The translations under genes were made by a program, and so were the position numbers. The notes under the pieces were generated by a model. The model saw only the letters and a list, made by a program, of their open reading frames with translations. It was not told where the DNA came from and ran no database searches. Of a DNA stretch of 64,000 bases, positions 5,056 through 60,958 are shown piece by piece. Position 1 is the first letter of the stretch; the number at the start of each line of letters is the position of its first letter. Source of the stretch: Eremomyces bilateralis CBS 781.70 (lineage: Eukaryota; Ascomycota; Dothideomycetes; Eremomycetales; Eremomycetaceae). The DNA lies in NCBI RefSeq assembly GCF_010015585.1, contig NW_022985102.1:115799-179798 (forward strand), in the 5' to 3' direction.

Positions 5056-5471
5056 CATCGAAGACAAGAGGCGGAATTGAGATGGAATAGCGTTTTATAA
5101 GAAGGAGAAGAGACTGATGGGTCGAATACTGCTTTCAATGTAGTGGATCCGCTTTATATGCCACTGCTTACAGTTGCGATATTGATCCTAGTCGGGATGA
5201 CTTTTTGATCCGGAGGTGCTTCGGTGTTTTGGGAAAATGGTTGGGCTGAACTTGTAGCGTTCTATTTACCTAAGAAGTGGATGCCTACGGAGTAATAGTA
5301 CCCATTCGGATTGCATGTACACTAGATTCTATCCTCATTTACCTATTGTCCAAATCTATAGCAATGTTTCATAAAATCACTAACCCATTCCTCTCGTTAG
5401 ACCCACAATGATTGAATATCATATTGGACACGCACTCGATCCAGTGAATCTGAATGATTTGGCATGATGAT

Positions 5472-6737
5472 TCATATCAGTTGTTCAGGAGGTCTATGTT
5501 CTTCGACGATGTCCTGCATTCCAGGCCAGACGCTCCCACCGTATCGTTCCGCAGCCATGAAGCACTTCGCGGCCTTCTTCTCATACTCCGCCCACAGTGC
5601 TGCGTTCGCTCCTTCGCGGTATCGATTGCATTCCAGATCGCCCACCCACAGCGCCACCATCCCTCTCAGCTCCCACAGTCCCGGCTGCTGGTCGTACGGA
5701 AAGGTACCCAGCGTCGAGTCCATCCGCATCGCCAGTTCTCGCGCCATCCTCAGTTCCCCCAGCTTGATGGCACGTCTTCTGGCGTCGAAGCCTTCGTCTT
5801 CTTCCGAATACGGTTGGATGGCCTTTTCACTTCTCCGCTGGATTTCGTAGATCCAGAGCGTGAACATCGGTTGGAAGAAGTCGCGAGCGTCGACTCGATC
5901 AGGTTGCTGGACGCGGTAGGGGTATTCGAGAATCAGTATGTCAAGCAGCTCTCGTGCTTTGCGGACTCCGTCTGGAGTGTATAGACCAGGGTTTCCGAGT
6001 CTGTGCCCTTCATGACGAACGTCACTCGTTCCATTGTCATCATCGTCGCTGGGGGTAGTCCGATGGGAATCCCCATCTCTACTACCTTCCGCTCCGCCAT
6101 CCTCTTCAACGTCGGTCCATTCGTCGTCACTGCCACGGGATTGTCGTGTTCGACGAGCGAGGATCTCCGCCGCGACGCCCCAGTAGTTGTTCGCCGTGAT
6201 ATCCGGGTAGTCCGGTCCAATCTTCGTCCGCAACAGCAATCCAAACGCTTTACTTGCACGATCTATATCTCCTTCCAAGAGCGAGTGGTGGAGGATATCA
6301 GACATGACAGCGAATTGATGCCGAGGAGCGAACTGTTCCTTTAAGGTGACACGTCTCGCGTCTCGCTGTGGTCGGATCGCAGGATCGAGGTCCGAGAATC
6401 CGCTCTCGGATTCCCCGATGTCGAGCCTTGGTCGCTTCCTCTCGCGCAGCGGTGCATGAGGAAACGGAGCCCCGGGGAAGGGTTCCCCTCTCTTCCAGTG
6501 AGCAGTTTCCAGCTCTTGAAGTTGAGCCGCAGTAAACTCCGTTCTCGGCGGCGTCTTCTTCCTCTCCTCGACATGGTCGACCTCACTCTCCTCCTCATCC
6601 GACGCCTGGCCGACCTCTCCCTTTCCCTTTTGACTGCGAGGCGATTTTTTCGCAGGGCCTTGGAGACGTCGAGCGCGCTGCTGCTTCGTGTGTTGCGATT
6701 GGCGGAGCGGTAACGCAAACGAATGACGCGATGCCAT
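5472..6737 (-). CDS. rrn11: RNA polymerase I transcription initiation factor Rrn11-like
   Basis: A single-exon protein of 421 residues. The first 120 residues are basic and acidic low-complexity sequence (KKSPRSQKGKG, DEEESEVDHVEERKK). The conserved core follows from about residue 140: RHQFAVMSDILHHSLLEGD, then DRASKAFGLLLRTKIG and NNYWGVAAEIL, resembling the TPR-like helical repeats of fungal Rrn11. Rrn11 is a subunit of the Pol I core factor (with Rrn6 and Rrn7) that binds the rDNA core promoter in the nucleolus. An acidic linker near residues 195-235 precedes a second helical region. The assignment rests on motif recognition by eye; the core is characteristic but the family is divergent. 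Confidence 0.7.
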   Translation of the reverse strand: MASRHSFALPLRQSQHTKQQRARRLQGPAKKSPRSQKGKGEVGQASDEEESEVDHVEERKKTPPRTEFTAAQLQELETAHWKRGEPFPGAPFPHAPLRERKRPRLDIGESESGFSDLDPAIRPQRDARRVTLKEQFAPRHQFAVMSDILHHSLLEGDIDRASKAFGLLLRTKIGPDYPDITANNYWGVAAEILARRTRQSRGSDDEWTDVEEDGGAEGSRDGDSHRTTPSDDDDNGTSDVRHEGHRLGNPGLYTPDGVRKARELLDILILEYPYRVQQPDRVDARDFFQPMFTLWIYEIQRRSEKAIQPYSEEDEGFDARRRAIKLGELRMARELAMRMDSTLGTFPYDQQPGLWELRGMVALWVGDLECNRYREGANAALWAEYEKKAAKCFMAAERYGGSVWPGMQDIVEEHRPPEQLI

Positions 6738-6851
6738 TGTGCATAAAAAGGCGAGAACCGGTGGCTGCTGACTGGTTCCAATAGTGCAGTGACAGCAGCG
6801 TGCAGCGGACGATAAAGTGAAACACCGCCACCGAGATCAGAATGCAGCGGT

Positions 6852-6875
6852 CAGACGGCCAGACGGTCAGACGGT
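6852..6875. repeat. 8-bp tandem repeat, three units, upstream of rrn11
   Basis: CAGACGG(C/T) occurs three times head to tail about 115 bp upstream of the rrn11 start codon, so within its probable promoter or 5' UTR. It could be a simple replication-slippage repeat or a clustered binding site. Confidence 0.7.
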
Positions 6876-7613
6876 CGTGCCTTTTGCATCGGACGCCTTT
6901 TTCGGCAGGCTGAGATGCTTAGGAAATGGGAGTCATCCAGGGAAGTATTTAAATATTATGATACTGGGATGATACTGGGGCAGGCGGTAAAAGACGATTA
7001 TCCCACGACTTCACCGCCTGATATTGAATGAATCAAACGGAGGTTGTCTTAAATAGCGTCTCGACTGGCCCAAGAGTACATTTGCCATGGTACCGCTGGA
7101 AGACCGCTGAGAAGTGATACGGAGGGTTTGGAGATGGAGCATGAGAGGAAGCCGATGGATGAGAAGCCGAGCTGGAGCTGGAAGCAAAAGTGGCTTCGTT
7201 GCAGAAATTTGGCATGAGAATTGATGGATCAAATGAATTCAACTTCTTTCTTGCTCACGCTGTATCTTCACAGCACCTACCAAGTACCTACTAGTATTAA
7301 TATTCGTGCACCTATGAATATTGGTGCATGAGGCGGTGGTCTAGTGGCGTTTCGCCTTCTCCCCAGCCGTCACTTCACCTCAACTCGTCATCTCGACATG
7401 AGCCCTGAATGATTCAGTTACCTATTCCTCAACTCCTCCGACCATCTCCTCATGAATCAACTATCCTATCTCTCCTGCTCCCCATTCTTACCTTTACCTA
7501 GATCCCACTGACCGCTTGTTATCCTCATCGTTTGTTATACCTTCGATCCGGGACCGGTCTCCCATCCGCCAGTCCCCGAGTTTGCCAGGCGCCTCCGCAA
7601 CCCTCCACCCGCG

Positions 7614-11106: not shown

Positions 11107-11140
11107 GGACTCTAGCCCGCGGACTCTAGCCCGCGGACTA
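11107..11140. repeat. 14-bp tandem repeat (GGACTCTAGCCCGC)
   Basis: Two perfect 14-bp units followed by a partial third (GGACTA), within the gene-poor region. Confidence 0.85.
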
Positions 11141-14035
11141 GCTTTACCCGTCTCGACTCTCGACCGTCTCGGACGCCGTCAGTGGGCAGAGAAAAGGGAA
11201 GGGTTAGGGGTACGTGATAACTCCCAGTCTGTCATTGGTTGAACGCGGAAAAGGTACGAGCAGGTTGGACAATCTGAATTCTGACAAGAATGACACGCGT
11301 GATATGCAGTAATTAGGACCCGCTACAGGGAGAGGATTAAACTTTTTCTCCCGCATGTACTAGTATGTATATTTCCTCATTTGCTACCCCCATCACCCAT
11401 GAGACATCAATCCCTCTACTGAAACTCCATTACTGTCGCAGTCTCGTAGGAGAATCGGCGACTTTGAGAGTCGGTTTCATGTGGAAATGATGTGTATCCA
11501 CACTCCCAGTCACCGATTTGCCTTCCATGTAGTTTCCTCGTTCTGGTATACGCCGTCATGCAACCATCCGCCCACGAAAGCCTGGCCGGTGAACACGGGA
11601 GAGTGACGACAACGCGATGCTGAACGGCCCGCAGATTGGCGTCGTGAAACGGTGGGCTAGACGTGTGGTTTACAAATGCTCTCGGAATCTTTGCTCGAGA
11701 AAGTCAAGGGGACCGTATTCCTTGGCAAGTTGACATCCTTGTTAGGTCTCCGGAGTGGCTTGACGACAATTACCTATTCCAGTCATTAGGGGCGGTCGAG
11801 ACCCCTCATTTTGATTTGTGGGTTGTGTCATTGTGCTAGGAATTGGAAATACTAGTTATTATTAATTACAAGATGACTAGTTAGTCCGAGCCTAAGTGGT
11901 GATCTGGAAGGTCGTTCAAGTGCCTTAAGATGCTGGTATTGTAACTATGGGCGGAGGCGGCACATAGTCATGCCGATGATACCTTCAACCCCTTGTTGGA
12001 CTACCCTCCTGGTTTGGTTTATCAAAGAGTGAGCTGCAGAGCTGGGCCTTGGTAGACTGACCTCATGGCGCAGAAGATGGACATTGTGGTTAAATTACGA
12101 GTCCTCATTCTATATACAACCGCAGACATTCTTCCCTTTTGGAGCGAGTTGCAGTTCATTCTGACTATTGTGAATCAGTTCCGCTCGTAAATGCTGTATC
12201 TCCGATCTTGTCGAAGCCTGTGCGTGCCTTGGACTTGTCCCTTGACGCCCTTCAGTCTATTCTTAAACGGTGGGCCATTGGGCCTAACTTAACTGCTTAA
12301 CATTATTTCAATCGTACTCGCCCCATATATCAAATTCGATGGACTACAGAATATAAACCAATTATCAGGGTCATGCCGCCAGGGTAGAAAATGTACCTTG
12401 TACTCCGTACAGAGTACGATATCCTGGCATTTGCTGAATCATTGCCGATTGTGGATGATGTCGATGCGGCGTCGGAAGTTCGGTCATCAGACCAACACTC
12501 AATATGCTGACTCCCACAGATGCACACTTGCTGCAGTGAAACTTATGACTCTGTGGGGCGCAAATATGATGGCAAATGTTGACTTGAATTTTCAGAATCG
12601 CTCGACGATCAGGTGGACGGCTGGGCGTGGACTGTGGACTGTGGATGCTTAGCCCGCTCCCCATACGAAAGCTGGCCGTGTCCAATTTGATCGACGATTT
12701 GCTCCATGTCTCGGAGGTATTGCTATTTTTGGTATAGGAGATATCCCCAAATCCAACCTCAATGGCTCCTGCGGTGCTTGACTCTTGTGGCTCGTCGTTT
12801 CGCATTTGCTTCATTGGTTGAACGAGTGTAAGATCAACCGGATCAGGGACGTGGAGGTTCCGTCGCCATAAGGGTAGGAAGAACCCTGGCATTGAGGAAA
12901 GGATTCCTTTGCTTGGATTCCGTCGCATCAACCCAAATCAGTTGCGGAGCCTCATGAGAGTGCGTTCCTGGATACTATTCTCAACTCTCAACCGTCTAGT
13001 GTATAGGTGACGTCGCAAACACGATGCACTGTTGCGGGATTAGCCTCCGGTCAGGACATCCCACTTCGCAGTTTGCAGGAGAGGTTGAATCAATGGTCGT
13101 TTTTGAAGTTGTGCTCGGAAGAATGGCATGGTGTTTGAGTGCTGATTCGAGATGATATGTGACGGTAGATTTCTGAACCATTGATACTGGACAGCCATGC
13201 AACATGAACACGCATGACAGGCTGCCCCTGTATCGTTCCCTGCACTTCAACCAGCATGGTGTTCCTTGGGGCTGCCGGCCCCTCCGTGCAACGGTGCAAG
13301 TACTGGGGTCTGGGGGTCCATCGGTGTGAAAGTGAATGCAGGTGAGAAGATCCACAACTGTTGGTGTGTCAGTGCTTGGAGCAGTAGTGAGCTCTCATTT
13401 CTCATCTCTTGACTCTACTATGTACTACTACGTATGTACGGAATATCGATTGGAGATATGCTGCTCTCTGATGCCAACACAGAGATTGTCGTTCAGCGTG
13501 CGCCTCCGGATTGCGAGGACCTCTGTGCCAAAGAGGACGCCCAAGGCATAGCACTTGACGGTGATGCCATGGATCGTTGGAGAGGGGATGAAGGTTCTCG
13601 GTGTCGTATTAATAGAGCTCTGGTATAGGCAATCTCCCGTTCATTTCTAGTTTCCTCGTTTGGCGCCCACTAGCCCCCTGGAGTATGGGAGTCTGGAGAC
13701 TGGTGTTGCAGTGACAGTTGCACTGTTGCTGCCATTGGTGCCAATATACGTAAACAACCTTCAGTGTAATCCGTCATTAGACTACGATAGAACACCATAA
13801 GGGATATCTGCGGAAAAGTGTGAGGATTTCAGCTTTTCGGCGAACATGAAAGTTCTAGTATTACACCTGGAGCCCAACTGATAGCCTAGGACTGGACGGT
13901 ACCAGGCGAACAGCAGTGCTCCCCCAGCTCGTCAAATTCGAATTATTCCGGGTATAGGCCAGATGCAATCTGCACGCAGTCATATAGGCTACATCACGAC
14001 GATTCCGAAATTGCTATGTTGTTGGCTTGTTGATA

Positions 14036-14093: not shown

Positions 14094-15893
14094 AGACAGG
14101 GAAGAAGCTTGCAGACACCACGTGGCTCCAGGTGTGGCCTTGCCTGCTCAGGCAAATCATATCAAATCCTCCTGTATCAGAATTCCGAATTTACAGATAC
14201 CTGGATGGATTCAATCTTCAATCAACCTTCCATCACCTTCCTGGGGCCGAAATCTCGAGATCGCCACCCTACATCCAGTCGTGAGTAACCTCCAGTCAAA
14301 GATACGCTCCACTCCTGTGATATATCATGTACTATGTATGGACTGAGAGCAGGGCCTCTGAATGGGATACGTATACCATGCAATTTCAAGGTTCAGAGAT
14401 GCTTAGTGCGATGTATACATTTACTTACATTCGCAACTTCCCGCACGGCTTGATCATCTGCCGGCAGTCAACAGGCCTTGCTCACTGTACGCAGTGAGCC
14501 ACTCCAATGGCAACCCACGCCACTGCTGATCCCTCTTGAATCTCGGGCGCAAGGTTGGACTCCCTAGAGAAGGATAATACCAAACCTTGAGCAAGTCAAA
14601 AAGTTCCCAAAGGCCACCAGGCGCGCGGCTGTGTTGCCTAACCTGGTACACGCTCTTGACACCTCTGTCTACCATACAGCCGGGCATATGTCTCATCACT
14701 TCACCTGTTTCACCACGGATTAAGTCACACAACAATACGCAAAATTAGGACCATCGTACCATGCCTGCAGATGCAAATTTCGAGTATCCAAAGCCCGAAA
14801 TTATGGCCGAGACAGGTCGAGGCAGGTCGAGACACACGGAATCTCTGGGAACGAGATCATGGGGCGGATGACTGCAGATATTGCACTTCGACCAACCAGA
14901 CTATCATTGCATCTTACACATGTCCTCCATCAAGTCCCAACAACCGGGTGCCCATCTCGGCGCTTATCAAGTCGCGAACTCTTTGCTGCTTGAAGTCGAT
15001 TGGACATGAGAATGCGATTCACGAGGAGCCGATTAATTGCCCATATCAGGATCCCAGTCGCTCAAGTTGACGATCTGCGTGGGAGCGTCGGCCAAAGCCG
15101 TGATCGACAGCATTATTCCGTCATGCTACTTGGATATCGAGTATTCAGATGTTCCCGAATTTGGGATATCAGGATGCACTTCTCCCGTTCTCAACCACTT
15201 CAATTGCCGGACTTGCGTTCGGTCGTTGAAGCGGAGCCTAGGGCAGGGAATATCAACTAGCCTTGCAAGAAAGAGGCAAGGATTCCACTCGCTCGTTCAA
15301 GACGGGCCGCAGTACTCCGCACACTCCGCAGTCCGCACAGGACGGAAAAGACGCAGGCACGGCTCGCGATTGCGCAAGCCACCAGTACCCGGCATTTCTT
15401 GTCAAACTGACCTCGAATCCCTGAATAATAGCCTCTTCTTCCCCTTTGAAAGCCGTGCTGGCTATCACCGATCACAACATCATGTTCGGATTCTTACAGA
15501 CAGGGCTATGGACCGGGATTTCGAGGTCTCGGAAGTTCGGCCAACAAGGGACCCTCCATTTTAACGCTACCAGTACGATAGGTCATAGGTACTCCGTATT
15601 ACCCTGCTGGATGTCATGGCGAGATCTGGAAGAAGCAAAGAAAGTTGACGGTTGCCAAGCACTAATGGCGCCTTTACAGTTTAATGTCTGCCTTTATGCC
15701 CTCAGAGACATTGACATACTATATATATTCGACGACGAGTCTGTTGTTTGGCCGTACCGTTATCATCTCCGATCATGGTTGATGAAGTCGATTGCGATGT
15801 CGGCGAAGTTTGTTTGATGGTTGTCGTCCGTTGCACATAATAAAATGTGCTCGTATCAGCCATCCAGTCTTGGGCGCTTGCGTGGAACTGGAA

Positions 15894-17863: not shown

Positions 17864-20212
17864 ATGGCTGGGCATTATCCATATCCCCATGGTGCTCCAT
17901 CCTACCATATGAACAGTGGTCGGCCTGTCTACCAACAAGAAAGCTTCATTCCTGGCCTACAGCCATACCCAACCGTATCGTCCAGACATCGCAGCTATGT
18001 CGAGTTCGAAGATGGCGCGAGGGGGCTTTATGCTCCGCAAAACTCTGGCCGGAGTAGGAGAAGAGTCGGGGCTGGTGGGGAGCATGTCAAGCATCGCAGA
18101 ACCCGCAGCGGTTGTTTCACTTGTCGACATAGACGAGTAAAGGTAAGATCCCACTGATTCATTCCCGGAGCACTGTGCAGTATTGACAGTCTCCGAACAG
18201 TGCGATGAGATACACCCAGTATGCGACCGTAAGTAGAGACAGATTACTTCGCTGTAGTTTTGCAGCCACTGACTGCTCCCGGCACAGGATGCAGGAAAGG
18301 CAACCGAGAGTGCAAATGGCCCGAAGCTAGTTCATCGTCCAAGTTCCGGCGAGGCTCCCGATCAAAGGTATCTTCCGAGAAGGAGAGCGGGTCGTCCGGC
18401 GAGGACGCGGAGCATGAGGAAGTGGACGTTGAAGGCCTTCCAACCATCAAAGACGAGGATGATGGTGCTGAAGAGTCTTCTCGGACCTTGGCCGACTCTG
18501 GTGATGTATGGGCGTTACCCGAAATCCTGCGGGATGGCTCCAACACACCGTCACTGACGCACGACAAGAGTCCTACGCCTTCGACCGAAGGCTCGACGAT
18601 GGCCAGCTCAAAATCGCCGCTAAAACGAGCCAGCCTAAGCAGCAGTAGCATCAGTCTGTCAGAAAGATGGACGCAGTTACCGGAAGACATGCAGTTCTTT
18701 TTGGACTACCACCAGAAGAATATAAACTTCAACCATTACGCCTTCCTCTTCGACGCCACCTTTTTGAAAACGAAGTATTTAGAAATTGCGCTGCACCATC
18801 CGCCTTTAATGAACGCCGTGGCCGGATTCGCAGCCTATCACCATACTGTCAGCGAAGGAGAAGGCAGGGTAGAAGACTTTTTGTGTTACTACAACAGATC
18901 AGTTACTTTACTGAGACAGTCATTGGAGCAAAGCACGAGACACTCCAATGCAACGTTGCTGACCATCCTCCAGCTAGCTTCCACAGAGGTATGTTGATTG
19001 TCTTGTATCATTGCACGGAGCTGACGATGCTCGCTAATAGGAGTTCCTCGGCGACTGGGTCAACTTGATGGGACACCAAAGGGCAGCTTTTGAAATCATT
19101 ACAGAGCTGTACACGCCGGAAACTATCATGCAGACCGATACGTTGCGAGTTATCATCACCTGGTATATTCGCTTCGACCTTTTTGCAGGCCTCCTTTCTG
19201 GGAACGGGTCTTGTCTCAACACCGAATGGTTTGATGCCTATTACAACTACTACCTTCAACAAATGAGAGATCATCCCGGTGACCTGAAATGCTTGTTCGA
19301 GGAGAGATTTGCATTCCAAAAGCTCCTGGGAGCGCATATGGCCATTGCTTTTGCTCGGAAAAAGAACGGTACGATATCCGACAAGGAGTTCGATCGAATT
19401 ACCGATGACTTGAATGAAAAGATCAACAATTGGGATGCGAACCTCGACCCTTTCCTGACCGACAAGACGAAGATGATCAACGACTTTTCTGGGGCACCTC
19501 CGCGTGATCCGAGCGAGATCTTCGACCCCTACGAACCTGGCTACTTGCATAGTGGCGAGTTCTTCCCGATCAACTTCCTCCGCATAAGCATGTGGAGTGT
19601 ACAGCTCGTGTTCGCTCGGCACATCGCTGAAATCCACCAGAAACCTCTGCCCCCTGGGATTCATCAGATTGCCCTGGACACATGCAAAATGTTTTTAGCA
19701 ATGCAACGGTGTCCTCAGAGTCCCCCAGGCACGGTGCTAGGGATCCAGGCTAGCTTCGCCGTCGCAGTTGTAGTGATCCAAAGGGAGCCGTATGTTAGTT
19801 GGATACTTAGGAAGATGGCAGAAGTCGAAGCGATGGGGTGAGTTGACTTGCATCTCGCATACTCTGTAATGGCTAACCGAAGCGTTTTAGGTACAGTTAT
19901 CCTGTCATGCTTCGTTTCCAGCTAACTGAAAGCCTCGGGATTGATGTTCGTCACTGGTGGCTGCCGAACAACGAGGGCTTTCCTCCGATTATGCAAGCAG
20001 TTCGACAATTTGTCACCGAGCGGACAGCAACACCTCGATCGCCTGCTGCGGAGGACCTACATTCCTTGAAAGGTATCTTCAAATCACTGAGTCTACACGA
20101 GGATGGCCAGCATAGTACCGGCGGTGCAGAGCCAAAGATTGCTGGAAACTCCACGCTCTACGGCGAAAGTCAACATTTCGCCCACGACTACGGTAGCCAG
20201 TATTCTCGATGA
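17864..20212 (+). CDS. Zn2Cys6 transcription factor, Upc2-like
   Basis: Five exons (17864-18142, 18201-18228, 18288-18988, 19041-19837, 19891-20212) give 708 residues. The zinc cluster at about residues 86-113 is split by two introns around a 28-nt exon. Spliced, it reads CFTCRHRRVKCDE, VCDRC, then RKGNREC, the canonical C-x2-C-x6-C-x6-C-x2-C-x6-C spacing. A Ser/acidic linker follows. The regulatory half begins near QFFLDYHQKNINFNHYAFL and continues through HHPPLMNAVAGFAAYHH, a pattern seen in Upc2/sterol-uptake-type fungal regulators. It should bind DNA in the nucleus as an activator or repressor. The target genes cannot be told from the sequence; the nearest metabolic genes (P450, thiolase) are 37 kb away. 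Confidence 0.9.
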
Positions 20213-23001: not shown

Positions 23002-24296
23002 CTATGCACCTTCACGACTCTGCCTGTAGCTCGCCTGTGTGGTTGTTCAGCAAGTGCACCCTTGTGGATGGAAGGACAGCGGAAACTTACCTCCTGTTCA
23101 ACTTGGAGCTGGTCAACAAGCGGGCCGAGTTCAGAAAGGATCTCATACGCCTTCTTGTGATATTCAATTTGAGCCGCAATCAGGTCAGCAAGATTCCGCA
23201 GAGGCTCCGGGGTATCAAGGACCTGCCAAACTGTTAGCTAACATCGCCTCGTGAATATCGCTCAGAATCGGCAGCGAAATAATCAGATGCTCGCCCAACC
23301 GGTTAGATTTGTACTCACATTCTTCATAACCCCCACCGCCTCCTCCGTCTGTCCCACAAACTCATCCTCTGCAGCCTCGATCTGGGCCCTCGCCTCCTCC
23401 GACAGCGGCTCATCATCCAACGCGGCCTCCTTCTTCGGTCCTCCTATCCCAAACGGTCCGCTCTTCACCTTCGCCTTCGTCGCATCGAGGCTCAAGCGCG
23501 AATTCTCGACCTGCTTCCGCGCGCGCGTCGCGAAGTTCAGCGACGTGTTGAGCGTCGTGCTCCAGCCGGCGAGGAACCGCGCCTGGATCGCGGCGTCCTG
23601 CGTCAACCGCGCCTCGCCGACTTTCTCGGACGCGATCGCGTACTTCTCGAGTGCCGAGGCTAGGGGGTCTTGGGTGCCGGAGCCGGCGCCGTCGGCCTGG
23701 CGGAGAGACTGGGAGCTGGAGATGGAGGCGCGGGCGATGGCGTGCGAGAAGGTCTTGGGCTGGGGCTTCGCTTGGGGCGGGGCGGTCATGGCGGCGGCGG
23801 CTTCGGTGGCGGAGTGGGCTTGGGAGAGGAGGTTGACCTTCTCGGAGACGGTGCGGCCCAGGTCGTTGAAGGACTCGCGGAGATTGGCAGGGTAGTCGTA
23901 GGCTTCGTGGGAGTATTGAGATCTAGGCGATGGAGGTCAGGAGGTGGGCGGAGCTGCCGTGGTTTCGGTAACGTACGTGACCTGCAGCATCTGCTGATGG
24001 ACTTGCTTAAGCGCATCGACGCGCTTCTCCAACTCGATGTAGTCCGGGGGGAGCTCAGTCTGGCTCAGGAGTCAGGTGAACCGTCGACTCTGCAATTCCA
24101 GATGATGATCAGGTGTAGACATACCTTATCGTCCACCTGGCCGAGTTGTTCCCTCACATATTGCGATGTCCTGTTAAACTGCGGCATCACCGCCGCCCTA
24201 TACGAGCCTGTGTCAGCACGCGGGGCGTTCAAACGGAGGATTGGGAAGGCCGGAGACTCACGAGAAATTCTTCCCGAATGCTTGGAACTTGTCCAT
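23002..24296 (-). CDS. BAR-domain protein, Gvp36-like
   Basis: Six exons on the minus strand (24262-24296, 24125-24197, 23977-24059, 23319-23922, 23091-23222, 23002-23034) join in frame to 319 residues. The start is MDKFQAFGKNF and the end is SYRQSREGA. The protein is almost entirely helical: ELPPDYIELEKRVDALKQVH and SEKVNLLSQAHSATEA, an Ala/Pro linker, then KYAIASEKVGEARLTQDA and ARKQVENSRLSLDATKAKV, and a final helix LIAAQIEYHKKAYEILSEL. This matches fungal BAR proteins of the Gvp36 type, which dimerise into curved membrane-binding modules in Golgi and endocytic traffic. The 11-codon terminal exon is inferred from splice sites and frame. Confidence 0.85.
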
Positions 24297-25447
24297 CTTT
24301 AGTATGCTAGATGTCCGGAGATTGGTGTGGGAATATCGGAATATCGGAATGTTTTGGATGCTAAGGTTGGTGGAGGCGATGATGGTTGGCGGTTGAGCTG
24401 TAGTTGGACGGAGACACGAGCAACGTGAACTGTTGCACTGGCGCTGATGCACGTGCTTGCCCTGTATCTGATTGGTGCCTCGATGCCTTAATTATTTTAT
24501 TATTTAGACAGGAGACGTGAGGACTTTCAATTCACGTGCTCCAACCAACCCCCTGATCCAGATCCCTGCAACCCTTCCATCCCTCAGCACTCCAACAGTC
24601 AGTCACACTGAGCAGTCAGCTTGGTCGATCGTCATCAAATGGATTCAATCCCCAACCACTTTTCGCCCTTTTGGGTTATCTATTGATATCAGCAATCAAT
24701 GCTATCAAATGTTAGCCGACCATTGCTACTCCGTAGCCTTGACATAATTGCAATTTGCTTGCTGCTGCTGGTTCTGGGGAAGTCTTGGACGCTCTGGGCG
24801 AGAGGAAGTCAGGGCCAATCGAGGACGAGACCTTAGTTAAAGGGACTGGTAATAATCGCTACCTTGGGTTATCGAGGGTTAGCTCCCGAGTCAGCGATTA
24901 CCGTTTGGTGCTCCTGTTGTTAGTAAGTTGGTGAAACTTGGTCGTATACTAAAGGACGTCAAGCGTGCAGTGTCATTTATCTCGTCTTCCGATGGTTGAG
25001 ACAAAATGGAATATCAGGTTAGTTGAGATATTGGTCGGACATCACAAGTAGAATAATGGACATGATCATATACAACTCTCTCAAATTTATCGACATCTCC
25101 AAATCTAGTAGATATTCACCAACTAGATCGACTAGTTCCTATTTTCGAATCCAAAAGGAACCCAATCCTTGCTGTCGTTTTATCATAGCCGCACCATTTG
25201 CGAACTCTATTGTGCCACGCCTGCCGATGGGACCATGTAACGAATGGTCAACCAAGGCAGGCCGCGAAGTTAATATGGACATCTGCCGACGCGACCACTA
25301 ACGAATGAATGGTCAACCAGGGCAGCGTGCCTGGAAGCGAAAGAAACACCGAGAACACCAGCTGGTGAGGCATGCCAACCCAATGCATGAACGAATGAAG
25401 CACAGGTTTGCAGTATTGTTCAACCGAAAACGACCCGGGCACACCAT
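24297..25447. other. Intergenic between BAR gene promoter and BYS1 gene 3' end
   Basis: No gene supported. One copy of TACTCCGTA lies at 24727-24735. A TTTGTTGAG-poor, AT-rich stretch near 25070-25140 contains repeated ACTAGT/TCTAGT-type hexamers of no clear meaning. Confidence 0.4.
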
Positions 25448-29994: not shown

Positions 29995-32900
29995 GTTGCT
30001 CGGATGGAAGAAGGTTGGAAGGTTGTGTCAAGCGATGAGATCGACACAATCAGGATGGTGGTCTGGTAGAACGACACGAATTCCGTCAGTTGCAATCGGA
30101 GGGGGTGTTGGTAGGTTTAAAACACGAATTTCCAAACCTTTGAATTGAAAAGTGAAAAGTGATGATGAAATCGAGATGCCACGTCCTGTTTCAGCTGGCG
30201 GTGCGGAGAGGTGGGAGAATTATAACCGCAAACGCCGTCGTTGGTGAGACATTGCGCCTGCCAATCCCCTAGCGATTGCGTCTTGCCTAATCAACACTCC
30301 ATTCTCGTCTCTTATTACAAAACAAATGTGATTAGCGCTACAGTATGGTCAAGGAGGGGGGGTTTGGTGGCTGCGGAGCGAGTGCGACTACTGCGCGTAG
30401 CAACGGAACATCCACCAGCCTAGACCATCTTCCGACTGGCATGGAACTATCGAACTAGGCCCAAGACCGGACAAGAATCGCAAGTTGACTCGCCGACTGG
30501 ACAGGTCGTCCGGTCCCGATACTATTAATGAGCCATGGCTTCCTCGCAGCTGTCGCAGGGTGCTTCAGAGTTCAGACAGACCAGCACTCGAAGTCTCCAA
30601 TCTCCATCCGAGTTGTGCGCCAGATGCGCCATCCGAGAAAAGCCACTCAACTCAACGTCGTGGGATTTCGAGATCAAATTCATCGCGATGACATGGTTCT
30701 TCCAATACTCATTACCCTATTCATTGTGGGGAACCGCGGGCCTCTCTCCCTCGTGCTCGACTGGACCGTCCTGGGGGCTTGAAGGTCAAATCGACCAAAG
30801 CGTGAATCGACTCCAAAGACAACCGCGTGAGGGGCGTCGAATACACTATTTGGGAAATCCAAGTGTCCAGTCATCTAGTCGTCTAGTTGAGAAGCATTTC
30901 TGCGCCACGTTCGCCAGCATGGGTTTCTACGCTTCGATTGAATGTATCCAAATGCTGCATCGGGTGCATCCATTGGTTCAGACTCCACACGTTGTGGAAA
31001 ATACGGTGTTCCACATGAACGGCGCCCGGTCTTACTACGTAGTATGCGTTGTCCCGGATGCCGCGAGATTCGGTGTACGCTACTCATGCACTGTAGAATA
31101 CTTGGCTGGAGCTGGTGCGACCTTGGGTTGGTACTTGGTAAGGGACTACGTACTCCGTAAGGGCAGCATTATTGCTACCAACGGTGGATACAGTATACGC
31201 ATAGAATGACGATGATAGTGTGGGCACTGGGCAGTTCGCCACGACTAACAATGGGCTTTGAAGCTATACTACGTATGCCCCACCGAAGTCCTCGGTCATC
31301 CGACTTGATTCTACGAGGCCGAGCTCGTAGTGACGCCGCCACTCCGTGAGACTCCGCGAGACAGTGGATGGATGGCTACTCTCTCGACTCTCCAGGACCC
31401 GAATCCTGGCTATCAGCTATGGCAAGGCGTGAGTGGAGACTCCATTCCTATCCCGATCCCAGAATGCAACAAACCAGGGAAACTATGCGTTGGAATTGGA
31501 CGTTGGGACTTTTGGAGTCCACCCTTTGAACCACTGGCTAACCATCGGCAGATCTCGGAAAGGAAGCCACCTAATAACGATCCTCCGTCGACCTTGGACC
31601 GAAGCCGATATGATTGACAAGGCAGACAGATCCTCACGCACGATCGGCCTCCAATATGGCCGGCGATTGCCCACGACAGCAACAATATGTAATATCTGAC
31701 GGTTCCACTTGATCGGCAGTTTAAATGATTATCCAAGAAATCAAGAACCAAGATCTACACTAGTGTTTTCTGCAGCTACAGAGGGAAACTCTGTTGAGCG
31801 ACTTAGGTGCTTGTCCAAGGCTCAAAGGTCATGCATGACATGGGATCCGTAGTAATGCTAATAACTATCAACAGACCAGAGTTGTATCCGTCTATAGACT
31901 AGGTCGATCCCAGACTTCGGGTTCGGTATTGCTTTGCCATCTTTGGTACGCTGGCTCAGGAGTTACGCATGAAGCCCTGGGCATATGCATCCTGGATTAA
32001 CTATTGCTGCGTCGACTCTCAACCATACCTTATACCTGTAATATTACGGAGTCTTGCATTGTGGCAAAACAAACATGATATGCATGCGACCATGTCGACA
32101 GCATTCAACTGATGGCAGCTCTTGTCCACCTTGAAACCTGAGCAATTAGCACTTGGGAATCCGTTCAGACAGTTAGGGTCAGATCATCCGCCCCGAGAAC
32201 TTTGCAGTACATTGATCATGAGAACATATTCAAACCATTCTGAACAACCCCGCTATGCACGGCGGTACATGGACTCCACAGATCTGGAAAGAGAGTATTG
32301 TCAGGACTCGGGACTCGACGAGAAAGGATTGTCGGGATCCACTACCTCCAATTGCGCGATTCCCCAATTGGCATCTGCCGGCGACATTTTTATACGACGA
32401 ACAGGGGCAGATAGACTACAATTGGATTAAAGCTATTGCTCCGCGCATATAGCCTTCGTGCATAAGGGCAAGAATTGAAGTTGTAAAGCTGACATGAGAC
32501 ATCCTTCGAATGGCGCTTAACGCGCCTTGTCGTACAGGCAGAGTCCTGGACGAGTACGAGTAGTGGCCATACAAGCTTATAGTACACAACGCAAAGGGCC
32601 TGTAGCATGCGAACTTGCGGAGCCGCAACTACAGTTCCGACTTGAGAGAAGTCAAGGAGGGACAGCTTCAAGCTCTCTCCTGTAATTCCTGGAGCTACGG
32701 TACGACATCAGGTCAGTTAATAATATACATGCGCCGACGTAGTCAACTTGTCGCGAGTGGCCGGTCGACTGTCGCCAGATATTCAGATCGAACTTGTCCG
32801 GTTACAAATGGCCGGCATCGATACCTTGGACTTGGGATTCCTGTCGTGACTCAGTATCCCGCTTATTTCACAGCACTGCGTCTCACTAACCCCCGACCCG

Positions 32901-33808
32901 AATCTCGTTAAGCTCTGGGGGACCGTACCTTCGACGTACATGTATCAGTACAGGTCCCCACTCATTCCTTGATTTTCCTAAACAGGTCGGTAGGATGATT
33001 GTCGCATGTCAATCTAGGTTGAACCGGTGTGAACACCCTCTGCATACGGGACGTGGGGGATTGACATGGTTCTAGCATACGTAGTAGGGTTGGATTATGA
33101 CCTGAGAAAGAGGACCTGGAGGTATCCCCTTGATGTCCAACTTTTAAGACCAGAAGCTCACTCATACGTCTTATCTCGAGTCACCTCCGTCCAAGTTACT
33201 CAATCCACATCGACTCGCATTTATGATTTTATCGATCAGTCAAGCATTCGAGTCTCCGAGCCTGCCGCGAGCCGTTCATATGTAGATAGTTGACGCGAAG
33301 GTCGCTTGCGTCAACTGAATCTGATATTGGGCAAGGTATCCATATACAGTGCTCCAGGCGTAGAATACCAAAGTTCCAGTCCACACAAGTCTATACTCCA
33401 GACGTCCATTGCAAGCAAACCCGTACAAGAAGCAATTGGTGCTGTTGGAATGGATTGAATGGACGTTGCAATTGTTTCATGTTTGAGGGTCGAATGATGA
33501 ATGATGAATCACAATAATGTGAGAACTGACCAAGTGCTCCGATAACGTGTCCTGATTGGGTAATCTGCCTGCGCCGAATCTCAGGCAGTGATCGCCAATT
33601 CGTCATTCATTCTACGGATATGAGAAGTTACCAGATAACAGAAGCGCTGAACTCCGAGACTCGAAATCGTTCTCTTTGATCTTGTTGAGGATTGAGTCAT
33701 CTCCCTTCTTCCATCGTTGCATCGTGTCTTCATTTAGGCACGCCTTCGGTTCCTTCAGTATCTTCCTCCTTCCATCCCGGAGCAGCCACGAAACGTAATT
33801 CGGACACA
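29995..33808. other. Intergenic, no supported gene
   Basis: 3.8 kb. The longest frame (30535-31209 plus, 224 codons) has random-looking composition and no recognised motif. One TACTCCGTA copy is at 31151-31159, plus CTACGTAG-like palindromes near 31034 and 31268. Confidence 0.45.
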
Positions 33809-47387: not shown

Positions 47388-48882
47388 ATGGACCACCCTG
47401 AGTTTCTCCCTCGTTCTCATCAGAACCTTACTATCGAGCCCCTCTATCCTGCGGCTGTCCTGATTGCAATCTTCTCCTTCATGGCCGTCGTCCTTGACAT
47501 TGCCCCCTTCTACTGGCATCTCAAGCATCGGAACACCGGAGCATACTGTCTCATCATGTGGTTCATCGTGCTGAATATCTTCAACGTGATAAATGCTATG
47601 GTCTGGCCTCGAGACAACATCGCAGACTGGTGGAGTGGCGTTGGGTTGTGCGATGTGGAAATTCGCGTGATCACGGGAAGTGGAGTGGGCATTCCCTGTT
47701 CACTCATCATTATCCTGAGCGCCCTCGCTAGAGTGCTCGATACTGATAACACGGTGGTTGTCCCATCTCGAAAAGACCGTATCCGACGGATAGTGAAGGA
47801 GCTACTTCTCTGCTTTGGCGTGCCGGTTCTGCATATCGTTCTCTCCTATGTTGTTCAAGCGAATAGGTTCTACGTCTTCGGAATCGCTGGGTGCTACTTC
47901 TCCCATGATTGGTCATGGCTGGCCATCGTTTTAGTAACGTCGTGGCCCATTATTGCGACGCTAGTGGCCTCATACTATGCAGGTATGTGATTCGGGGAAA
48001 ATAAAGAGAACTCGCGCTGACATAGAGAAAGTGTTGGTGATTTACCGTATTTATCGGTATCGGCAAGGATTCGCCAGCGTCCTTCGAGCAGCCGAGACGT
48101 CCAAATCGCGATTCATCCGTCTTTATTTGATGGCTGGCGTCTGCATCCTGGTTGTTCTTCCAATCTACACCTACCTTCTCGTCTTCTACCTCACCATGGG
48201 CGTTAGTCCATACTCCTGGGAACGAGCTCACGAAGACATCACCAGAATCCACATGGTGCCGAGCCAGGGAACAATCCCAGTCGACCGCTATGCTCAACTT
48301 GTGGGCGGCTACCTGACGTTCTTCATCTTCGGACTTGGGCAGGATGCCGTGCAGCTTTATAGCTCATGGTACCACAAATCTGGACTGGATAGAGTGGTAC
48401 CCGACATGCGGCGGCTGAAAAGCATCACGTCATCTCTTCGCACCAGGTCGTCGTTCAGCAGCATGGCAAAGTCTGTCAGCAGGAAGTTTAGCACACAGGG
48501 AGATATCCATGTCACATGTTCTTGGTATTTTCTCTATTTAATCTGGGTATTGAGACGCTTACTAATTAGAGCGTACAGGTCAGTTACTGAAACCACACAA
48601 CCTGCGGGTTCTCCGGAGCATCCTCGAGCGCAAACCGGCGGCGACAAGTTCCATTGGTCATTTGATGAGGAGATGGGAGGAAACTATAATGTCGGGAGCA
48701 TGCGCTGGACGAACGCGTTCCAGTTCTTTAGTCGATTCAGGAATCGATCGTCGGGGGCTGGCGGACCAACTCCGCCACCGAAGGAAGTCCCGCGACTTGA
48801 TATCCAGCGTTTCTCTCAAGACGCGGCCTGTGAGACGGATCTTTCTCCGATGACGAAGGAGGCTGCGAATGCGCACCTCTGA
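47388..48882 (+). CDS. preA: STE3-type pheromone receptor (GPCR)
   Basis: Exons 47388-47982, 48026-48524 and 48579-48882 give 465 residues. Seven hydrophobic segments are seen, for example LYPAAVLIAIFSFMAVVLDI, AYCLIMWFIVLNIFNVI and WSWLAIVLVTSWPIIATLV. Family-typical sequences include NTGAYCLIMW, VWPRDN near helix 2-3, FYVFGIAGC, and YRYRQGF in the third cytoplasmic loop. This is the fungal a-factor-type receptor that couples to a heterotrimeric G protein during mating or chemotropism. The Ser-rich C-terminal tail fits a desensitisation tail. Intron 2 (48525-48578) is 54 nt and stop-free, so the unspliced frame stays open. I remove it because of its donor, TTACTAAT branch and acceptor. Confidence 0.9.
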
Positions 48883-52279: not shown

Positions 52280-52360
52280 TGCAAGAAGACAGATTCAGGA
52301 CCAAAAGACTAACGATATAATAGCACGAAGAGTTTTCAAGCGACACGATGTCAAAAACAT

Positions 52361-54462: not shown

Positions 54463-55847
54463 TCATGACACATGACCGTGAGGCCCACGGATGTCAGTCC
54501 GAATATCGGTTTGAATATCGGTTCGGAAAACCCACTCCTGGCTCTCGTCGTCGCTTATATTCCCCAATGTTCTCGTCTTCACTGGCGCTGGGGATGCCTT
54601 CATCTCCACGTCCCGTGTGACATGGATGTCCCGGTATCCAGCCCGGTGGCTCTGGTGGGACGAGAGAGGACCGCCATAGGTGAGATCCGTGTGTCGACGG
54701 GAATTCAGTGCGCCACTGCGATTGTCGGTGGAGTGCACGAGGCCGGGGAAGCATTTGCGCATAGCCGGACGGATCCCGGGGAGGCAGCCGCAGATGATTC
54801 CGAGGCCAGTTTCAACGTCGGTAATTACGTAGATGATAGTGCCGATGTCTATATGGTATGGTCAGCGCCGAGGTCGTGTGAAAGGGGTCTAGTGTTGGCC
54901 TTTGACGTACGTGTTACGTCCCAGGTGTCAAAATATTTAACTATATATCCAATCCGAACGATACTCACTATACAGACGCTAAACCAAGTCAGCAACGGGT
55001 GGAATGAATGATTTGGCACTACTGACATGACTCCTAGGCTGAAAGATAGGATCAGCCCAACCCGCTTATTAAGGCTCAGTTTGACCTTCCAGAGATAATG
55101 TACCGGCCAGAGGAAGACCAAACAATCCGTGAAGGCGTTCACGGCTGTCATAGCAATACTAAATGGCTCAAGATTCATGCATTTCCTGTCGACCTTGAAA
55201 TAGTCCCAAGCGTCTTTAATAGGCCTAGAGAATGTCAGACTTGGATACGCACAGTCCCGGCAGTGACCGGTACAGACGGATTGCTTCTTACCAACATTGG
55301 AATATCGGCGGTAGAGCCCAGGCGAGTCCGGTTGCAATCAAAAGGACGATACAGACATAGTTGAACCGTGAATTTGTGCGGGATGGAAATATGCGGAGGT
55401 ATGTCAAGCAGACGGAGATCTTTGTCAACGCGGATGTTGGGCCAAACAAAACTTGTGTGGCGACAGCCATTTTGGCGATGGTTGGTACCCATTCCAACTT
55501 GACGTCGTAGAGATGTCGACCAACGCCCACATCCAACTCGACTATATGTAATATCGCAGTTGCCACCGCGCATACCTGATATCCTGTCAGCATTTGCTTC
55601 AGGGGGGTCGTCGATGTGGACCAATATCTGGACTCACATATGCCATTAACATGGTCCAATCGTCCATTCCCAGCGCATTGCGAATGATTATGATTCGTGA
55701 ATAGAACCGGCATACGATGAATATCGTGGTCAGAACTATCAAAGTGATATCCACTCCCCAAACCAGTGGATCGAGCACATCGCGCGGGTTCTCGTAGTCC
55801 GGAGTTGGCCAGCTGAGGACGACATCGAGTGTCGGTAGTTGTGACAT
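54463..55847 (-). CDS. Rhodopsin-like (SAT4/fungal rhodopsin domain) membrane protein
   Basis: Exons 55638-55847, 55292-55575, 54911-55224 and 54463-54848 give 397 residues. Seven hydrophobic segments are visible, including DPLVWGVDITLIVLTTIFIV, VCAVATAILHIVELDV, NYVCIVLLIATGLAWALP and SIAMTAVNAFTDCLVFLWPV. Family hallmarks are MDDWTMLMAY after helix 2, GVGRHLYDV, KISVCLTYLRIFPS, CIVSIVRIGYIVKY, then IGTIIYVITDVETGLGIIC and CLPGIRPAM. These describe the fungal extracellular-membrane rhodopsin-like domain often adjacent to transport or secondary-metabolism genes. Its function is unknown. A segment in exon 3 (MSVVPNHSFHPLL) looks inserted, but removing it as an intron would break the frame. Confidence 0.85.
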
Positions 55848-57751
55848 GATCGACTAGACTCAAAGAACAATGGTGAATCAATGCAGGCTCAAGACTCTTG
55901 AAGACGTTGAAGATTGCTCCGAAGGGACATAATCATTTTTGGGTTTCCACCTAAGACAAGTTGCCTCGCGGATGAGTTTGCATATAGGAAATTGAATTGA
56001 TATCCAAGGTCAGATCCGATCGGACTAAGGTGGGCACCGCTAGGAGGTATATCATTTATCAAGGGTCCGTCAACGTCTGGGGTGGTGAGGACGAGAACCA
56101 TTATTACTCCATTGCAGCCACTACACCCACAGACTCTGTTTTGCGGCGAGCATGAGGCAGGGCTGGTATGGATGAACGCCTCGGGCACTCGACCATACAA
56201 TACTGCATTCTGGCCTCTGGGTGCGGTACGTCGTGTCAGGGAGGGGGTAAGGATCAAGGCAGAATAGAGGCCGCTGTACGGAGTATCCCGACCATTACCA
56301 GTGAACTTTGAGCATTCGAGGTGTCTGGGGAAGAGTGCGTAGTTGGTTGCTCTCCACTTCCCCGGATACACTAGTGGCGCCATATGCCCTAGCCCCTAAG
56401 ATTCAGTCGTGGCCAGGCATGCAGCGTCCATAGCATTTGGCCCTTGGCAGCGCGTCCATGCTCCAATGGAATAGCTAGGAATATTGGAGAAATTGTTACC
56501 AGCTAGTACGATTTAGGAGGGCTGGAGGGGGTCTTGGATCTGACACGGATCGCAAATGTTTCGGATTTCGGTCCACAGTGCAGGAAAGTAGCGACCATGT
56601 CGAATTCCGGGGGTATTAATATGTGATCAACCTGCAAGTACATGGGGTATACCTGTAACGAGTGCAGGACTTGACGGAAGAAACCAAAGGCATTCCGAGT
56701 TTCCGACAGGTGACAAACTGAAAATGTCATTTCGGTAGCGGCTTAACCTTGTATCCGTTACCTGATGGCGAAGCCTTTTCGTCGAGGAGGAAACCGTTGA
56801 ATACTCGAGGTACAGGTACGCCCAGAGTTTGGAGCAGCGGAAAGGGAATTCAATATTTTCCCCACCTTATGGATGATGATTTACATAGTATGGTCCCATC
56901 AGTGAACAGTCGGTCCTTTTGAGCGGAATTTCCCTAGATACGAACCCTGCGACTTGCGAGGTACCTCTTCCTGACGGGTGTGTTGATCATTGGTGGCACC
57001 GTAATTACTCCAGTTTTAACTCCACTGTCTCCATAGGCTCCATAGCGGGAATGACCCGAGGTCTAGCCCAGTCCGGCATCGTTCAATTTTCCACGCACAG
57101 TCGCCCTCGGGATGAAGATCAGACGCTGAGAAGATGGCGTTTTCGAGCTGTTGATCTTCGTTCTAGTTGCTATTCTAGGTTGACAAGATTGAGTCGGAAA
57201 ATCAGATCACTTCGGTCCCGATTTGTGTTGGACGATACTCTGTTGGGTCCATGTTTAATTTAACAGCATATTGAATTTGAACCTTGGGACCGCTGGGAGG
57301 CGCTGCGTCGTGTCGCCCTACGATGTAGTCCATAGAGGCTTGGGCGGCTGGAGCCTGGAGGGCAGAACAGAGCCAGACTCGAGCGCTACTGCCTTTGGGC
57401 ATTCCGGTAATACATAGTAGTAAGGATGGAGTACTCCATACATGATTCAGTATTGGTACTATTACACGGTGCTAAGGCTAAAAGTGTTGTGGTTCGTCTC
57501 ACTTTCAGCAGTTATTCCCGTCTGTTGCTACTCACGCCACGCGTGCCCGTGAATCCGCAGCTCCATGGGCTTGTGGCATGAATAGGTACTGGTACGGAGT
57601 ATGGTATCCATGGCGTATTTCCAAACGCCGACTAAAAGTAATATGGAAGAGTATGTACCCAATCTCGGTTCCCTCCACCTGCACTCTTCACGCTTCTCTA
57701 TCGGGTTACAACCATTTACGGGATTCACACTAAGTTCAGCTCCCCTTTTTT
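55848..57751. other. Intergenic, no supported gene
   Basis: A 164-codon frame at 55889-56383 (minus) is not protein-like enough to call. Two TACGGAGTA copies are at 56277-56285 and 57593-57601. Confidence 0.45.
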
Positions 57752-59696
57752 TCAATTCTTCACTCCGTCCCTGGGAGCCAGGGATATCTTTGCGTGCAAC
57801 GGTCCCTTCGCCCACAGCACATAGACCTTCTGATCGTTCCAATCTTCACTCTCTGGCAGGAGTTGGAATTCGAAGTTCCAAATTAGGCGGGCAACAATAA
57901 GCCTCATTTCTAGATACGCGATGCTTCCAAGAAAGTCAGTGATTGCCAAAAGTCGATCCTGATCGTCCTATGATTTTGTCCTGAAAGGGGCTAGCGACGA
58001 CAATCTCTGCGGCAAGGAGTCTCTCCATCTGCGACGAAGACGAGAAATTATGGGATGGACCACTTACTTCTTTCCAATGCAATTCCTTGGTCCCATGCTA
58101 AACGGATGCAGAACATCAAAGCGATCGTTTTTGTATCGCTCGTCTCCGAGGAATCTCTCCGGCACGAACTCGTATGGGTCACGGAAGTTGGTGTCGGAAT
58201 GGTACGACGCCCTTGATCAATCAGTCAAAATAAATCTGAGGAGCAGCTGCCTGTCGCAAAAGGGGAAAACATACCAATGCGAAACGCCCACCACCGTTCC
58301 GCCAGGAATCCATATGCCGTCGATGTACTCGCCTTCGCCAGGGACCACACGACCCAATGATGTCGGTATTGGGGGATAAATCCGCAGAGACTCCTCCAGC
58401 ACAGCGGTCATGTACCGACACTTGCTGACGTTATCGTAGCTGATGTCCGCTTCATTCTTGAAAGTCCCACGGATCTCCTTGACCAATTTCCGATAGACTC
58501 TCGGGGTCCGTAACAGGTAATAGAAGCATCCCGATAACAGAGTCGCGGTAGTTTCGCTGCCCGCGATAATAAGCACCTCGGAATTCGCCTCCATCTCCGA
58601 AACCGACAACCCTTCGGGATCTCCCATTGTCTCTAAAATCTCGCCCATGAAGTCCGGTCGTGAGGTCTCCATGTGGATTCGTTTCTGGACTTTCGCCGTC
58701 GTTAGTGCGATATGGTCATCCCTACCTTTCTTGATCTTGGGCGGCAAAACAGCGTTCAGAAGCCAGAGTGCCCCTGGGATCAGCCGAAGACATTGGACGA
58801 CCACCACTGCGCGAAGAAAGTCGAACGTGAGTTTGATCCATGGGTGCAAATTGGCGTTCTCAAGGCACCCGAACGACTCGCCATACGCAAGGTCTCCGAT
58901 GACGTCGAAAGTGGTATAGTTCATCCAGGCCGCTAGGTCGACCTTCTGCCCTACCCGCTCTTTCAGTCGGATAACCAGAAGGTCAACGTAGCGCATTATC
59001 ATTGGCTCCTGACCCCTGAGGCTTTTTTCAGAGAACGATGGACTGAACAGCTTTCGAAGCCGCGAATGCATAGGACTTGGTGCATTTAGAATGCTCCAAT
59101 CTCTCCCAGGTTGTCTCTCATATTGATCGGGATCCTACTGTCCGTCAACTGAGGTGTCTGGAGAATACCAACACATTCGGGCCTTCATCGAACCTTTTCC
59201 ATCTGGGAATATCGATGGCCACTCCGATACCCGTATATCTCGTGCCAGGCGCCAGGCGAATTGAAACTCAAGAGATTGATACCCACCCGCACAACCGGCC
59301 CATATTTTTTATGAAGCTTGGCATATTCGAACACCAGGTCGCCATGGAAGTTTCTGTAGTGGTGCACGAAAGGGGTCGCATTTCGAAACCTGGGTCCAGG
59401 GAACTTGGCGAGCGGATGGAAGTAGGCATTGTAAATCGCTTTGGAGATCAAGTAGATCAACGACTGCAAGCTTCCGTGTCAGTCCAAGCTTTCCAAGATC
59501 CTTCTCTTTTGCGATTTCATCTCCATCCCAAGCGCCGTTTCGAGGAGTTCAAGGCATAAAGCCGTTCAGACCATCACCGCTCCATTGTGAGAGCGAAAAG
59601 GGAAGGCTGGGTACGCACCGCAAGGATAGCCACCAAGGCCACACTGCCAGGTCGCATGGAATTCACCTGTGCAATCTGCGCCAATAAGCCAGCCAT
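57752..59696 (-). CDS. Cytochrome P450 monooxygenase
   Basis: Five exons (59619-59696, 59194-59463, 58275-59134, 58068-58211, 57752-57923) give 507 residues, the standard microsomal P450 length. The N-terminus ([19 protein letters not shown]) is the membrane anchor, followed by the hinge [12 protein letters not shown]. The I-helix reads [12 protein letters not shown], the K-helix ExxR is EESLR, the PERF motif is VPERFLGDE, and the heme loop is [12 protein letters not shown] with the ligand Cys. The pattern [14 protein letters not shown] resembles trichothecene-pathway-type (isotrichodermin hydroxylase-like) P450s. It probably oxidises a lipophilic metabolite in the ER. The exon 4-5 join (AA|C giving Asn) restores the conserved [10 protein letters not shown]. 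Confidence 0.9.
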
Positions 59697-60958
59697 CAGG
59701 GAGTTTCCAGATGTCGTGCAATAGTTTCAAATAAAGTAGCGGGCACACCTGACGCCCATAACAGTCGAGATAGAGGTTGTGCAAACCGACACGGATTTCT
59801 TTATGGTTCAGTGCGACATACTTTTAACCTTCCCAATTCGATGGTAGAATTAGCCTTTCGTCCCCAATTAATTAGGTATAAAATGTGTGGGACCAACCCT
59901 GGTGGTACGTTCTTGGATTTCTCGACAGCATTGCTTTGCTGCATGAGTCGCGGAGCGAGCAGGCTATCGTGGGATTGGACTCAATGCAGTCTTGGAAGTT
60001 AAACACCACCTACTCCAGCATCCAGCTTCTAACCCTTGCCAAACTCAAATTAGAAGATTTCTAGAAGCTGGTCGACGGAATGTTCCATATGACCAGATGC
60101 TGCACGTCGAAGGTTGGACCGCAGGAGTGACCACTGCATTCATCGGGGCTGGGAGCATCGGCCCATGTAGCCACCCAGTATTAAATTCATACCGCGATTG
60201 GACATCTCCTTCTGCCACCATTCCGTGATCGGAGCGTTTTACGGAGTAGGGCCATTAGTGACCCGAAGACTGAAGGGGATTGAGAATTTGAGATCATCCT
60301 TGACTCTTGGGTGTGAACATTGACAGTTGACAGGAGCAGCATTGCGTCGACATTCGATGCACGGCGGACCACCCTGTCTTACGATGCTTGTCGAACCCGG
60401 GAACAGGCCCGATGTCCCTATCGGCGGATTCCACAGTTCGCCCAACAGCCACAGAACGAAATGGAGATTCATGCTGCCACTTTGCGAGCCAGTGGACTGG
60501 TTGTAACTAGTTCCACCACACCGGCTCGCTCCGTAGAAGTGATGCCAAATAGACAATGGGGCAGTGGGGTCCCATGTATGATGTACATACTATGTAGTAG
60601 CTTTCGCGTGGCAGCAGTTACTCCATCGACCTGGATGAGCTAGACTGGTCCTTGGAGCAGGATTCGCTTCACAAAGGCTCCAATATCCATTGCGGTCGAC
60701 ACCGAATAAGAATGGTCGGTGGAGTTTCCTTGGTTTCGTTCTTCAGTTCTTGTGTCAATCCTTGTCCAATTGGGGGAAATAAATAATAGATCGGATTAAC
60801 CGACATGGTTGCACAGCAAGACAGTCGCAAAAATTGCTTGAATTTCTCCAGACGAACAATCAAACTAAATATGTACAGTTGAATGACGCTTCTCAAATTG
60901 TCTTGACGTTAAATTTCTTCACGGCTTCTTCGCTGTAAGGCACCGGCTTTCCAGCACT
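59697..60958. other. Intergenic between P450 promoter and thiolase 3' end
   Basis: No gene supported. One TACGGAGTA copy at 60240-60248. Confidence 0.5.

Follow-up and report, generated by a model that had tools for sequence, protein, structure and literature searches.

A repeated intergenic 9-mer of Eremomyces bilateralis: probable core of a regulatory protein-binding site and apparent target word of Starship elements

The 9-mer TACGGAGTA recurs eight times in a stretch of 64,000 nucleotides from the ascomycete Eremomyces bilateralis CBS 781.70 (assembly GCF_010015585.1, contig NW_022985102.1, positions 115,799 to 179,798; hereafter the window). It is probably the core of a host protein-binding site that also serves as the target of Tardis-type Starship elements, with the window copies themselves unoccupied. 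We find a genome-wide excess of the word, an intergenic bias within 264 kb, an extension of the word into its flanks, and left ends of elements that coincide with it elsewhere in the genome. The original prediction had offered a binding site as one of several options, and this option gains support from a match to the published motif of the regulator SomA and from the intergenic bias. A repeated word that had no explanation is now tied to a published regulatory motif, and the ends of giant transposons are placed on the same word.

All eight exact copies were recovered, four on each strand. In 100 dinucleotide shuffles of the window the mean count is 0.22 and the largest is 1, and a second-order Markov model predicts 0.28. 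The excess claimed at the outset is thus real, but its size of 16-fold is an underestimate, the value being about 29- to 36-fold. With at most one mismatch, 24 copies are found compared to a shuffle mean of 7.19 and a maximum of 16. The three most over-represented 9-mers of the window are TACGGAGTA, TACGTAGTA and TACATAGTA.

The genome searched comprises 26.63 Mb in 62 contigs, numbered C1, C2 and so on, in which the window is C36:115799-179798; the word read backwards served as the genome-wide control. There are 691 copies of TACGGAGTA (354 forward, 337 reverse) compared to 223 of the reversed word, a threefold excess, which makes the over-representation a feature of the whole genome. A comparison sample of 200 kb from contig C1, made up of 20 stretches of 10 kb, holds 5 copies against 0.72 expected from a Markov model. 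The window is denser than the genome mean (8 compared to 1.66 copies per 64 kb). When 691 sites are scattered uniformly, 50% of 2000 simulations contain a 64-kb stretch with at least eight copies, so that a strong local hot spot is an unnecessary assumption. The maximum in any 64 kb is 6 on contig C1 and, among the copies listed, 5 on contig C2. TACATAGTA is also about fivefold richer in the window (5 compared to 0.95, p 0.003), which leaves room for a mild local enrichment of the motif family.

The flanks of the word favour G and C genome-wide, giving the longer consensus GTACGGAGTAC for which the original prediction had suggested looking. This 11-letter form occurs 112 times, compared to 23 for its reversed control and 46 expected if the two flanks were independent. 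GTACGGAGTAC is the reverse complement of GTACTCCGTAC, the SomA motif of Aspergillus fumigatus, which is reported in 119 of 476 shared peaks from chromatin immunoprecipitation sequencing (PMC7667024). In the same report, electrophoretic mobility shift assays (EMSA) with recombinant SomA lose binding when the motif is mutated, and a SomA EMSA was later repeated for meaB (PMC10900910). The related forms of CTACGTAG type that had been mentioned also exist. The palindrome TACTACGTAGTA, which consists of two overlapping copies of TACGTAGTA, occurs at 35 genome places compared to 3 for its control, and TACATAGTA is enriched with 394 copies compared to 221. Among the papers listed by a brief literature search, none appeared to describe TACTACGTAGTA as a fungal motif. 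Head-to-head pairs of the word show a modest excess (11 places compared to 4), and a tandem 7-base repeat of the word shows none (23 compared to 20).

We ranked 9-mers in the predicted non-coding DNA of the window and the C1 sample, 147 kb in all. TACGGAGTA comes first in this pooled set (12 copies, 0.65 expected), TACGTAGTA second (9, 0.33 expected) and TACATAGTA fourth (8, 0.54 expected), the third being a simple AG repeat. The pooled list also includes GCCTGAGGC, the core of the motif CTGCCTGAGGCA assigned to an SltA homologue from A. niger footprints (PMC8419926), a hint that such a ranking catches real sites. In the window alone, TACGGAGTA, TACGTAGTA and TACATAGTA rank 1, 2 and 3 of 865 ranked 9-mers. 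In the C1 sample alone TACGTAGTA ranks 11 of 7678 (4 copies, 0.21 expected), and the two other words stand much lower, at 69 and 478; the top pooled place of TACGGAGTA is therefore driven mainly by the window. In this sample from outside the window, the word is enriched yet is not a top intergenic word. The rank of 69 is the one result that leans towards a composition artefact or chance. The excess over dinucleotide shuffles, over the reversed word genome-wide and over the Markov model in the C1 sample speaks against this explanation, which the genome-wide count refutes and to which we give practically no weight.

Placement relative to genes was judged with a small purpose-built gene finder trained on the long open frames of the window and the C1 sample; no annotation was used. 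It overlaps 14 of the 15 window genes with a clear Pfam match and misses the rhodopsin-domain gene near 55 kb. The copies of the word and of its relatives in the window are as follows.

5286..5294, plus strand: TACGGAGTA, in a convergent gap; a RING-finger gene ends 488 bp before it (at 4798), and the 3' end of an Rrn11-like gene (5472) follows after 178 bp.
12401..12409, minus strand: TACGGAGTA, forming with TACAGAGTA a head-to-head pair of which it is the left half.
12408..12416, plus strand: TACAGAGTA, right half of the head-to-head pair TACTCCGTACAGAGTA (whole pair C36:128199-128214).
13416..13424, minus strand: related form TACATAGTA.
13426..13434, minus strand: related form TACGTAGTA.
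14330..14338, minus strand: related form TACATAGTA.
15590..15598, minus strand: TACGGAGTA, in a stretch free of predicted genes on the 5' side of a Fungal_trans_2 gene (17997-20212, plus strand).
19860..19868, minus strand: related form TACAGAGTA, in a predicted intron of the Fungal_trans_2 gene.
24727..24735, minus strand: TACGGAGTA, upstream of a BAR-domain gene (23002-24296, minus strand) and 431 bp from its predicted start.
31033..31044, no strand: palindrome TACTACGTAGTA, two overlapping TACGTAGTA (C36:146831-146842).
31151..31159, minus strand: TACGGAGTA, near the end of an open frame at 30535-31209 (plus strand).
31267..31275, minus strand: related form TACGTAGTA.
33078..33086, plus strand: TACGTAGTA, upstream of an R3H-associated gene (33809-34924, plus strand) and 723 bp from its predicted start.
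56277..56285, plus strand: TACGGAGTA, on the 5' side of the fungal rhodopsin-domain gene (minus strand, Pfam matches within 54466-55932).
56882..56890, plus strand: related form TACATAGTA.
57411..57419, plus strand: related form TACATAGTA.
57593..57601, plus strand: TACGGAGTA, flanked by the rhodopsin-domain gene and by a P450 gene (predicted 58064-58996, minus strand) whose 3' end faces it.
60240..60248, plus strand: TACGGAGTA, between the P450 gene, whose 5' side it faces, and a thiolase gene (60959-62530, minus strand), whose 3' end is 711 bp away.
60588..60596, minus strand: related form TACATAGTA.

Elsewhere in the window lie a gene for an STE3-type pheromone receptor (47388-48882) and a tandem repeat of period 37 with 2.5 copies (35125-35215); Rfam and tRNA scans of the window gave no matches.

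The statement that the word lies only between genes holds insofar as the gene models place all eight window copies outside coding sequence. It is too strong for the copy at 31151, which is not certainly non-coding: the open frame in which it sits has 224 codons, a weak coding score of 4.9 and no Pfam match. In the C1 sample one of five copies is inside a predicted coding sequence, so that over the 264 kb of window and sample 12 of 13 exact copies are intergenic. For the family of four words TACGGAGTA, TACGTAGTA, TACATAGTA and TACAGAGTA, 31 of 34 copies are intergenic, 2 intronic and 1 coding. The control, drawn from 300 permuted words and counted without TACGGAGTA itself, gives 351 intergenic, 17 intronic and 194 coding copies of 562 (Fisher p 3.5e-5 compared to the family). 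With all 5040 distinct permutations as control, 3303 of 9594 copies of the other words are in coding sequence. Among these permutations TACGGAGTA ties for second place with 13 copies, and CGATGATGA is first with 18.

The same placement bears on the idea of a signal at the RNA level, such as a transcript-end or processing element. The copy at 5286, between two converging 3' ends, would suit it. Of 10 copies between co-oriented predicted genes (one of the ten in a predicted coding sequence), 4 are in sense and 6 in antisense orientation, and distances to predicted gene ends vary from 178 bp to several kb. The strands are balanced genome-wide (354/337), which alone is no test of orientation to genes. 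On the mixed orientation we reject the transcript-end signal put forward originally, and we regard any RNA-level role as very improbable.

The second role of the word emerges outside the window. The predicted target of the Starship Tardis in A. fumigatus is TACGGAGTAG, and CTACGGAGTA lies above the 99.99th percentile of k-mers in strain Af293, for which a transcription factor site has been suggested (PMC12153272). Direct repeats of the word at Tardis edges are known from the A. fumigatus literature only. A search of the present genome for the captain domain DUF3435 (PF11917) gave 46 matches, grouped by eye into 21 places, and the upstream stretches of 16 of these were examined. Six of the 16 contain exact TACGGAGTA, and in five the word is followed by ACGTTNNGNG (three exact, two one-letter variants). 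We then searched genome-wide with the left-end pattern TACNNNNTAACGTTNNGNG, in which the four central target letters are left open. It occurs at 10 places compared to 2 for the control, all of the form TAC[G/A]NA[G/A]TA followed by ACGTTNNGNG. The target word is exactly TACGGAGTA at six of the ten and a one-letter variant at four. The pattern itself had been shaped on six of the ten; the four new ones are two exact copies and two one-letter variants. The places are as follows.

With a captain match 0.6-3.0 kb inside: C3:972202, C5:1105200, C17:208045, C20:285912, C32:12511.
With no captain match among the matches listed: C1:2389303, C5:1412626, C13:360132, C15:213562, C42:4452.

Nine of the ten left ends could be aligned, one of them over 118 bases only. 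The inward sequence is homologous and begins ACGTTNNGNGCTAC, and the outer flanks look unrelated by eye. A word that varies beside a conserved inner end is as expected of a target site. The ten places match left ends of Tardis-like Starship elements, to which we putatively assign them.

These ends invite the reading that the window copies are themselves footprints or ends of mobile elements, spread by transposition. A Tc1/mariner-type transposase open frame in the window (1285-2292; DDE_3, HTH_Tnp_Tc3_2) and the presence of the word in a published A. fumigatus short interspersed nuclear element (SINE; PMC5063351) would also fit. Against it, the element inner end ACGTTNNGTG follows no window copy, and the 25-base flanks of the eight look unalike. 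No DUF3435 captain match on contig C36 is among the matches listed, and only 10 element ends of the searched pattern stand against 691 copies of the word. BLASTN of the window against itself and the fetched loci (E 1e-5) finds repeats only within 63406-63955. The footprint proposal was apt in that the word appears to be a landing site of Tardis-type Starships elsewhere in the genome, but no window copy carries that element end. We therefore read the window copies as unoccupied binding or target sites. The dispersed-repeat reading of the word is disfavoured, and footprints are largely refuted for the window, where we reject them as very improbable. The sequence at 63406-63955 is 79-83% identical to stretches beside two captain matches (L040 and L036).

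In the mechanism that we favour, the fuller host site would be GTACTCCGTAC / GTACGGAGTAC, with TACGTAGTA and TACATAGTA as relatives, present at several hundred genome places, mostly between genes. The leading candidate factor would be SomA or else a C6 zinc-cluster protein that recognises a similar site, and binding of the window copies by either is what we would expect. The recombinase of a Tardis-type Starship would insert its element next to the same word, and the eight window copies would be sites that have stayed free of it. More tentatively, the host regulator and the recombinase might both recognise one degenerate word, of which TACTACGTAGTA would be a two-fold form that binds a dimer; the transposon would then have taken over a common regulatory site for its own attachment. 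TACGGAGTA, TACGTAGTA and TACAGAGTA turn up between genes as well as at the landing sites of elements. If the attachment site is indeed shared, the element would land beside genes and rarely break them, and binding of the factor could affect the choice of Starship insertion sites.

Several results weigh against a host site that doubles as a Starship target. Five of the ten left ends have no nearby captain match among the matches listed, and a right end sought as an inverted copy of the left end gave 2 matches compared to 3 for the control. Some copies may sit in repeats, as the A. fumigatus SINE indicates. The ranks of TACGGAGTA (69 of 7678; 4 copies, 0.42 expected) and TACATAGTA (478 of 7678; 3 copies, 0.37 expected) in the non-coding C1 sample lower our confidence slightly. 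Avoidance of coding sequence is weak for exact TACGGAGTA alone (1 of 13, p 0.07, or 0.04 with the all-permutation control), and the position of the copy at 5286, in a convergent gap, is not that of a promoter. Published SomA targets include fks1, chsE and chsF. No exact TACGGAGTA occurs in the 2.87 kb upstream of the predicted fks1 start (PF02364, contig C14). Nor is there one in the 2.8 kb between two divergent chitin-synthase genes on C12, which we take to be a chsE/chsF-like pair; only one TACGTAGTA and TACGGCGTA are present there. The test covered these genes among the published SomA targets and one of two glucan-synthase matches, the second being partial and situated at the edge of C14. 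These absences weaken the proposal that SomA regulates the same genes, not the proposal that the word is a binding site. Two KilA-N matches were considered as stuA, but they look Mbp1/Swi4-like by eye and so were not used as a SomA target. One of these genes, at L021 (C13:559000-565500), has TACGGAGTACGGAATA (3254-3269) about 95-110 bp before its predicted start.

The missing word at these targets is in keeping with a version of the favoured mechanism, compatible with it, in which the factor is a C6 zinc-cluster protein other than SomA and SomA is recruited indirectly. SomA is a LisH/Flo8-type protein, and the word contains CGG. It also overlaps the C6 zinc-cluster profile UN0291.2 of A. nidulans in JASPAR, as reported in PMC12153272. 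The EMSA with recombinant SomA and a mutant probe (PMC7667024) argues for direct binding instead. The CGG triplet expected of a zinc-cluster site is absent from TACGTAGTA, from the palindrome TACTACGTAGTA and from the enriched TACATAGTA, a further point against a site of this class in the main proposal as well. We consider a C6 factor a serious possibility, though not the favoured one. The string UN0291 in PMC6167834 is part of unrelated gene labels and was rejected as a mention of the profile. The word also appears in primer sequences of papers on Coccidioides, A. carbonarius, A. flavus, A. fumigatus (abcG1 promoter) and Fusarium, which were not used as evidence.

The motif and both of its roles are already published for A. 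fumigatus; the present analysis contributes data from another genome, together with the related words, the palindrome, and left ends of elements that sit on variants of the word family. The SomA motif contains TACTCCGTA, the reverse complement of the 9-mer, and its 11-letter form is enriched here. Binding is known from A. fumigatus, whereas for E. bilateralis it is predicted from the sequence match, and TACTACGTAGTA and TACATAGTA are not named in the available part of PMC7667024. As with Tardis, the same word lies at the edge of captain-bearing elements, and its over-representation has been published there too. In contrast to Tardis, the window copies appear unoccupied, and the putative ends in the present genome share the inner start ACGTTNNGNGCTAC and also sit on one-letter variants of the word.

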